Shown here piece after piece: positions 28,801 through 29,920 of a stretch of 64,000 nucleotides of DNA. A program made the position numbers and the translations under genes. Location of the stretch: assembly GCA_947488085.1 (NCBI GenBank), contig CANKYI010000001.1:2241928-2305927 (forward strand), written 5' to 3'. Source of the stretch: an uncultured Erythrobacter sp. (GTDB taxonomy: Bacteria; Pseudomonadota; Alphaproteobacteria; Sphingomonadales; Sphingomonadaceae). The notes below the pieces were generated by a model. The model was given only the letters and a program-made list of their open reading frames with translations, was not told the DNA's origin and searched no databases. The stretch's first letter is position 1. Each line of letters starts with the position of its first letter.

Positions 28801-28826
28801 GTAACCAAACCCTGTTTGTCTGCGAA
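28801..28826 (+). promoter_or_regulatory. Predicted SigF-type ECF promoter of the bufferin-like gene
   Basis: GTAACC (28801-28806), then exactly 16 bp, then CGAA (28823-28826). This reproduces the -35/-10 pattern described for the Caulobacter ECF sigma factor SigF, whose known targets include bufferin operons. Transcription would start near 28833, about 60 bp before the ATG. Confidence 0.6.
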
Positions 28827-28891
28827 TCGATCACAGAAGGTGCCTTGGGATCACCAGCACCGCACAGATCATCGGAATTGGAGGAAAGACC

Positions 28892-29236
28892 ATGAACACC
28901 AATCGTATTAACGGCTCAATCGCACTCGCGGCTGCTGCCGGCCTGGCCGCTGCATGCTCTGGCGGTGCCGATGCACCAACCGAAGCTGCAGAAGCGGGTG
29001 CCGAAGGCGCAGAGACCACGGAAGTCGCTGCAAGCGGCGAGAAGGAGAAGTGCTTCGGTGTTTCCCTCGCTGGCGCGAATGACTGCGCTGCCGGACCTGG
29101 CACAAGCTGCGCTGGCACCAGCGTAATCGACTATCAAGGCAATGCTTGGACCTATGTCGATGCGGGCAGCTGCGAGACAACTGAACGTCCAGACGGCAGC
29201 TTTGGCTCGCTCGAAGAGACCGAAAACGTCTCTTAA
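28892..29236 (+). CDS. Bufferin-like (BufA1/DUF2282) copper-buffering precursor peptide
   Basis: 114 residues. The N-terminal export signal ends in an AAACSGG stretch, which could also be a lipobox (Cys about 21). An Ala/Glu-rich linker (about 25-50) follows. The core has four cysteines in the DUF2282 arrangement: [22 protein letters not shown], an aromatic NAWTYV and SCETT. Proteins of this family were recently named bufferins. In the described systems Cys residues are converted to copper-binding heterocycles by a DUF692 (MNIO) enzyme with a partner protein. No DUF692 gene is nearby, and a terminator follows at once. It sits behind a SigF-type promoter. Confidence 0.75.
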
Positions 29237-29260
29237 GAGTCGATAGACCACTATTGCTGA

Positions 29261-29294
29261 GGGGCCGCCGGGCGATGTCCGGGCGGCCCCTTTT
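29261..29294 (+). terminator. Rho-independent terminator after the bufferin-like gene
   Basis: A GC-rich stem with arms GGGGCCGCC (29261-29269) and GGCGGCCCC (29282-29290), extended by further pairing around a short loop, is followed by TTTT at 29291-29294. It ends the plus-strand transcript directly after the gene. Confidence 0.85.
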
Positions 29295-29362
29295 GCATTT
29301 GTGCGCAGATGTTTGAGCAGAGCATGTGGAGCGGTGTGATCCGCCCTGCTATCCTCACTTCA

Positions 29363-29920
29363 ATGGCTCGTTTCCGCTCCCCCGTGCGCCGACAACGCCC
29401 GCGCTCTGGCTTAGCCAGCTGGTGGCCGATGTGGCGGATGCCAGTACTCTTGATCATCGTGATGACCGTTTGGTGGTTCGGTTTTCGCCCTGTCGCATCG
29501 GATGAAGGCTGGGTCCGAGTGACAGAGACCTTCGCGATTTGCGGCCAAGGCAGCGCGCGCCAGCCGGGCTGTGTCGTCGATGGCGACACCGTTATCATCG
29601 GATACGGCCCCCAGCGCCGCCGCATCCGCCTAACGGGCTTTGATGCGCCTGAGCTGGAGGGCGCATGCGAGGCTGAGAGCGCGTTGGCCCGGCGTTCGCA
29701 GCAGCGTTTGCACCAATGGTTGAGTGAAGGGCTGTTTGAATGGGATGGCGACATCTCCCCTCCCCGTGACCAATATGGCAGAGAGCTGCGCGCGGTTCGT
29801 CGCATCACCGCCAACGGCGCTAACGGCGCCTCAACCCAATACCTCGCAGACGTCATGATCGCTGAAGACCTTGGCGCACAGACCGGCTGGGGCACCTTCG
29901 AACGCGATTGGTGCGACTGA
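29363..29920 (+). CDS. Membrane-anchored nuclease-like protein (staphylococcal nuclease homologue)
   Basis: About 185 residues from ATG 29363 (an upstream in-frame start at 29309 is possible but overlaps poor sequence). One transmembrane helix near the N-terminus (MPVLLIIVMTVWWFGF). The SNase/TNase core motifs CVVDGDTVIIG and RRIRLTGFDAPELEGAC follow, then a helix with ESALARRSQQRL and the DQYGRELRAVRR strand. The family hydrolyses phosphodiester bonds with Ca2+; Asp of DGDT, Arg of RIRL, Asp-Ala-Pro-Glu and Arg of GREL are all present. Probably acts outside the cytoplasmic membrane. Confidence 0.82.
   Translation: MARFRSPVRRQRPRSGLASWWPMWRMPVLLIIVMTVWWFGFRPVASDEGWVRVTETFAICGQGSARQPGCVVDGDTVIIGYGPQRRRIRLTGFDAPELEGACEAESALARRSQQRLHQWLSEGLFEWDGDISPPRDQYGRELRAVRRITANGANGASTQYLADVMIAEDLGAQTGWGTFERDWCD

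Follow-up and report, generated by a model that had tools for sequence, protein, structure and literature searches.

A solitary argB-linked DUF2282 gene of Erythrobacter encodes a candidate membrane-anchored bufferin

Buf1 bufferins are exported copper-binding peptides whose central cysteines are converted to thiooxazoles; the DUF2282 proteins CC3254 and CC2907 of Caulobacter are among those so named. Modification in Buf1 falls on the central cysteines, and the outer two are joined by a disulfide (PMC12452194). Stand-alone precursor genes are already in print and were counted as bufferins, with modification at a distance and no modification both left as options; 21 of 4072 genomes with DUF2282 had no MNIO (PMC12452194, Table 3). 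The main text of the same paper mentions lipoproteins only once, for the lipoprotein signals in about 16% of Buf2. DybA and NedA, which were mined from MNIO neighborhoods, are RiPP-lipoprotein hybrids, and a subset of bufferins has been named as predicted lipoproteins (PMC12636315). In E. coli, NedA, a precursor of the EGKCG type, was triacylated as well as modified by MNIO (PMC12636315), indicating that lipidation and MNIO modification together are chemically possible. The class name captophorins has been proposed (PMC12668002). In Caulobacter crescentus, the SigF binding sequence is GTAACC-N16-CGAA (PMC3511200). Solitary Buf1 genes with lipidated products were the subject of no paper in our search of the open-licence PMC literature.

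We analyzed a DUF2282 gene in a 64,000-nt stretch of DNA from an uncultured Erythrobacter sp. (hereafter, the window). The open reading frame at 28892–29236 (+ strand) encodes a protein of 114 residues, designated a DUF2282/BufA1 precursor ("lipo-bufferin") on the basis of its Pfam match and of the occurrence of 46 intact argB-linked genes of this kind across the genus. PF10048 (DUF2282) was the one Pfam family found in this frame (E = 6.9e-22; 77.6 bits versus a cut-off of 22.4), and the match covers a core at residues 51–99 (29042–29188, +) that contains C54, C65, C73, and C94. The cysteine core had been likened to DUF2282/BufA1 in the initial annotation, and the family search, which could have placed the protein outside DUF2282, placed it inside. 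An NCBIfam profile search of the protein returned no family, and a search of solved structures returned only three matches (E = 0.49), to its N-terminal part. An AlphaFold2 model built from 14 sequences was uninformative (mean pLDDT 45) and was not used. A Shine-Dalgarno sequence, GGAGG, is read directly at 28880–28884 (+). The upstream neighbor is argB, in divergent orientation, and the next downstream gene begins at 29309 on the same strand, beyond a terminator-like hairpin. The window gene is a single-gene unit away from MNIO genes, like the stand-alone precursors described previously (PMC12452194). The downstream gene (29309–29920) resembles a staphylococcal nuclease by eye; Pfam gave no family for it.

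The protein starts with a predicted Sec signal peptide of the lipoprotein type, read with a lipobox rule like that of PROSITE PS51257. Residues 1–21 (28892–28954, +) consist of a start with R5 and a hydrophobic Ala/Leu stretch running into the lipobox A19-A20-A21-C22 (28946–28957, +), a configuration that points to signal peptidase II. C22 is the predicted lipidated first residue, and is invariant in 14 of 14 aligned relatives. It is followed by an Ala/Glu-rich linker, residues 23–53 (28958–29050, +), which varies in sequence and length among the aligned relatives. In its family, its four cysteines, and its apparently exported precursor, the window gene resembles the Buf1 bufferins, and its promoter motif is that of SigF in Caulobacter (PMC3511200). 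Unlike them, it has no MNIO/DUF692, DUF2063, or DoxX gene adjoining it, and it carries a lipobox and a linker. Solitary Buf1 genes are not tied to lipidation or to SigF in the relevant parts of the earlier account (PMC12452194). With DybA and NedA the window gene has in common a lipobox plus cysteines of the type targeted by MNIO, whereas it lies outside any MNIO neighborhood (PMC12636315). That stand-alone bufferin genes are already known was a point missed in the initial annotation.

The genome (3.42 Mb) contains two DUF2282 genes, one MNIO/DUF692 gene, and one NrsF gene. The second DUF2282 gene, which had also gone unnoticed, lies in a classical bufferin locus, where NrsF, an ECF sigma factor (SigF), DoxX, and BufA1 are encoded on one strand, and MNIO and DUF2063 are encoded divergently on the opposite strand. 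The core of this paralog is 75% identical to that of the window gene, and the same 15-residue stretch surrounds both central cysteines. Thus, the searches suggested at the outset, for DUF692 and for a SigF/anti-sigma pair, were both positive: the single MNIO gene was found at this other locus with its DUF2063 partner, and the ECF sigma factor was found with NrsF at the same locus. The precursor had been described as solitary. This description holds for its surroundings, where no DUF692 gene adjoins it, and fails for the genome; because a complete bufferin locus exists elsewhere, the window gene is an orphan only in its place.

We infer, with a probability of roughly 55%, that the window gene encodes a SigF-controlled, membrane-anchored Buf1 bufferin that is modified in trans. 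Under metal or thiol stress, SigF would be released from NrsF and would switch on both the main bufferin locus and the window gene, the latter through a promoter of its own. MNIO, acting in the cytoplasm with its DUF2063 partner, would then modify the two central cysteines as it does those of the soluble bufferin, but in trans, because both proteins are encoded only at the main locus. After export by Sec, C22 would be lipidated and signal peptidase II would remove the signal peptide. The bufferin domain, which would bind copper, would then be held by the flexible linker on the periplasmic side of a membrane. The residue that follows the lipobox cysteine directs the sorting of lipoproteins between membranes. 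As this residue is Ser in 43 and Gly in 3 of the 46 intact copies, the membrane is probably the outer one. Copper would then be buffered in two places, one served by the soluble form and the other by the anchored form. More tentatively, and with odds that we set a little below even, the bufferin system of Sphingomonadaceae may be split between a soluble precursor beside MNIO and a lipid-anchored second precursor, which would have its own transcription unit and be modified in trans. The product would be a copper-chelating lipo-RiPP at the membrane, possibly shed in vesicles, and its gene could not be found by searching around the enzyme. Our analysis suggests that searches confined to the surroundings of the enzyme count too few RiPP-lipoproteins.

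We surveyed the class in the genus ("genus" and "family" denote groups as drawn by the genome search used, not formal names). Of the 114 genomes sampled from the genus, 74 contained DUF2282 (131 matches in total) and 69 contained MNIO. Seventy-seven of the matches lay within 4 kb of MNIO and 54 did not. Forty-eight of these 54 genes were no more than 2.5 kb from argB, including 42 at no more than 1 kb, and the other six were not; 46 of the argB-linked genes were intact and two were broken. All 46 intact copies kept the four core cysteines, including both central ones. A lipobox-type cysteine was present in all 46 (44 by script; two that failed the script's choice of start, namely the window copy and a copy containing an unread stretch, by eye), as compared with 5 of the 77 MNIO-adjacent genes. 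No lipobox was found in the six other intact solitary genes of the genus, giving 46 of 52 intact solitary genes versus 5 of 77 MNIO-adjacent genes (Fisher 1e-22, with relatedness ignored). In the 72 MNIO-adjacent genes without a lipobox, the first core cysteine follows the start by 33–37 residues, leaving no room for a linker, whereas this distance is 47–70 residues in the 44 intact argB-linked genes scored by script. Lipobox and linker set the solitary argB-linked class apart; both had been overlooked in the initial annotation. In a tree of the domain, 38 of the 46 argB-linked domains, together with the non-argB gene L201, formed one split with a support of 0.91, and eight fell outside it. 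As the class is marked by lipobox and linker, has a promoter motif in common with the main locus, and is broken or without its central cysteines in some enzyme-less lineages described below, the question of modification in trans becomes directly testable.

Among the best 80 of 284 related loci, the closest named relative of the window gene was that of an uncultured Erythrobacter (L016; 94% over the full length). Thirteen of these 80 loci, all from Erythrobacter or Qipengyuania, have the gene between argB and the nuclease-like gene with no MNIO match; these loci overlap with the 114-genome set, and the counts were not added. In the remaining 67, an MNIO match was present in the fetched flank of all but one (66; the exception is L039). 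These 67 alphaproteobacterial loci contained 69 DUF2282 open reading frames, among which a single match to the lipobox pattern (L085) was judged false, being part of a signal peptide of the ordinary kind. Of 23 solitary DUF2282 genes from outside the genus, 18 had a lipobox (in two of the 18, one gene of L302 and that of L308, it was read by eye), and three of the five without one (L289, L293, and L295) had SigF or DoxX matches nearby.

The initial annotation had offered two possibilities, modification in trans or activity in copper binding without modification. According to the second, the lipoprotein stays unmodified, its four reduced cysteines bind Cu(I) or another soft metal on a membrane tether, and MNIO serves only the soluble paralog. 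We regard this as rather unlikely. The lack of an adjoining MNIO gene speaks for it, whereas the retention of both central cysteines in every intact copy speaks against it, as do lipobox precursors that lie in tandem beside MNIO genes. The five MNIO-adjacent lipobox genes of the genus (L227, L240, L246, L247, and L255) are all second precursors next to a soluble one, and the same soluble-plus-lipobox pairs were found in L309, L311, L313, L314, and L315. Nine of these ten pairs are beside MNIO, and in the tenth, L313, an MNIO fragment is cut off by the contig end; both kinds of precursor are thereby placed next to one enzyme. Tandem pairs without any lipobox were found in L310 and L312, outside the genus, where 20 MNIO-adjacent loci were fetched, seven of them chosen for holding tandem genes (one locus, L316, gave no DUF2282 entry).

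The distribution of MNIO bears on the same alternative from both sides. MNIO accompanied the intact argB-linked copy in 44 of 46 genomes. The two others, G238 and G249, are 80% and 88% complete, respectively, and their intact copies favor a function without the enzyme. By contrast, in the MNIO-less genomes G216 and G217 the gene is broken (L216 and L215), with the lipobox cysteine replaced and a stop in the core. In a family sample of 199 genomes (four of them of the genus), DUF2282 was present in 66, and only two of these, G051 and G128 from one other genus, had no MNIO. Their DUF2282 proteins (L307 and L308) are of the lipoprotein type and keep the outer cysteines, but both central cysteines are absent. 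Thus, in some enzyme-less lineages the solitary class is broken or is without just the modifiable cysteines. A counterexample to enzyme dependence is G291 (L164), a 100% complete genome with an intact soluble BufA1, DoxX, SigF, and NrsF, in which no MNIO was found. Taken together, the comparative evidence leans toward modification in trans without proving it.

These counts are strongly tied by descent. In a tree of 98 ArgB sequences (L166 and L168 were dropped because their matches were short; neither L167 nor any genome that yielded no usable ArgB match is included), the argB-linked trait changed 6 times and MNIO 12 times, versus 32 and 31 times, respectively, for shuffled labels. A single split with a support of 0.88 encloses 50 genomes, namely those of all 43 intact copies in this tree, the two with broken copies, and five that have MNIO and not the gene. 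Four genomes in this clade have no MNIO, namely the two with intact copies (G238 and G249) and the two with broken copies (G216 and G217). Since G216 and G217 are neighbors in the tree, their gene loss counts as a single event. Because the class is one clade, its association with MNIO is weak, and we did not rely on a P value for co-occurrence in the 114 genomes. Twenty-five genomes have MNIO and no argB-linked copy; in 7 of them, argB was also not found. We queried the argB locus in 42 genomes (40 without DUF2282, plus G216 and G217) and examined the 30 loci that were returned. In the 30 genomes without DUF2282, the argB locus showed no remnant of the gene, and in 12 of them the fetched flank included the nuclease-like gene.

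We then considered the processing of the signal peptide. If C22 were not lipidated, a nearby signal peptidase I site could free a soluble bufferin with a longer N terminus, which would amount to a second dose of the same product. The signal is Ala-rich and has possible A-x-A sites, and among the 44 scripted copies the residue at -3 of the lipobox is most often Ala (38), followed by Thr (3), Leu (2), and Val (1). As this residue is mostly Ala, the lipobox is of the broad rather than the classical kind; the window copy, with Ala at -3, likewise fits the broad pattern and departs from the classical Leu/Val/Ile. We nevertheless consider this alternative improbable, given that the cysteine is invariant in the aligned relatives, is present in all intact argB-linked copies, and is missing from 72 of the 77 MNIO-adjacent precursors. 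Moreover, LAAC occurs at this site in two relatives from within the genus and in several solitary genes from elsewhere, and the linker is distinct.

Upstream of the gene lies an exact match to the SigF-type promoter, with GTAACC as the -35 element (28801–28806), a 16-base spacer, and CGAA as the -10 element (28823–28826, all on the + strand), 91 nt upstream of the gene start. The motif had been proposed as SigF-type in the initial annotation, and its placement and its conservation in relatives bear this out. Neither promoter nor hairpin was counted for the one copy with an unread stretch; among the 45 rather than 46 intact copies that could thus be scored, the exact motif was found 81–110 nt ahead of the start codon in 39 of them, including the window copy, and was absent from six. 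The motif was not found, even with a relaxed pattern, in 30 argB regions of 700 nt from genomes that do not have the gene, all of which lie outside the clade that carries it. The same motif precedes the BufA1 gene of the main locus, and a copy with one mismatch, GTAACG-N16-CGAA, precedes its MNIO gene. Together with the ECF sigma factor and NrsF encoded in the genome, this is what would be expected of a member of a SigF regulon. The five lipobox genes found in tandem within the genus are all without a motif of their own, and outside the genus the exact motif precedes 3 of the 18 solitary lipobox genes (L291, L292, and L306).

Downstream of the gene, a terminator-like hairpin followed by TTTT is located at 29259–29292 (+), as judged by folding and conservation. 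The 64 nt after the stop codon folded with a z-score of -4.7 relative to shuffled sequences. The hairpin is followed only by TTTT, and a scanner for consensus terminators did not list it. A hairpin of this type was found behind 35 of the 45 intact copies, versus 11 of 225 mononucleotide shuffles, and the next gene lies beyond it, in agreement with the proposal that the gene has its own terminator. A drifting paralog without present function, to which the broken copies in G216 and G217 and the 25 MNIO genomes without an argB-linked copy might point, is very improbable in view of the conserved cysteines, lipobox, promoter motif, and hairpin, and of the retention of the gene in 43 of the 50 clade genomes.

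Finally, we examined the motif over longer stretches of DNA. With up to two mismatches, the main bufferin locus had 11 matches versus 5.2 expected. With up to one mismatch, the window had 4 matches versus 2.3 expected, a number reached by 25 of 100 shuffles. The genome as a whole contains 10 sites versus 13 for the reversed pattern, and motif frequency was therefore rejected as evidence for a promoter. Placement gave a different result. An ATG with a Shine-Dalgarno sequence and an open reading frame of at least 90 residues was found 36–120 nt downstream of 7 of the 10 motif sites and of none of the 13 reversed-pattern sites (Fisher 5e-4). Furthermore, 12 of the 13 control sites, versus 2 of the 10 motif sites, lie in or opposite an open reading frame of at least 200 codons. 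Thus, the number of motifs is chance-like, and their placement is not. Other motif sites in the genome (L005, L006, L007, and L011) precede genes for a fusion of VTT with a pyridine nucleotide-disulfide oxidoreductase, a thioredoxin, a glutathione S-transferase, and a methyltransferase. The methyltransferase gene has no recognized Shine-Dalgarno sequence, and its product resembles cyclopropane-fatty-acid synthase by eye. The genes behind these sites possibly constitute a thiol and metal stress regulon wider than that of Caulobacter.
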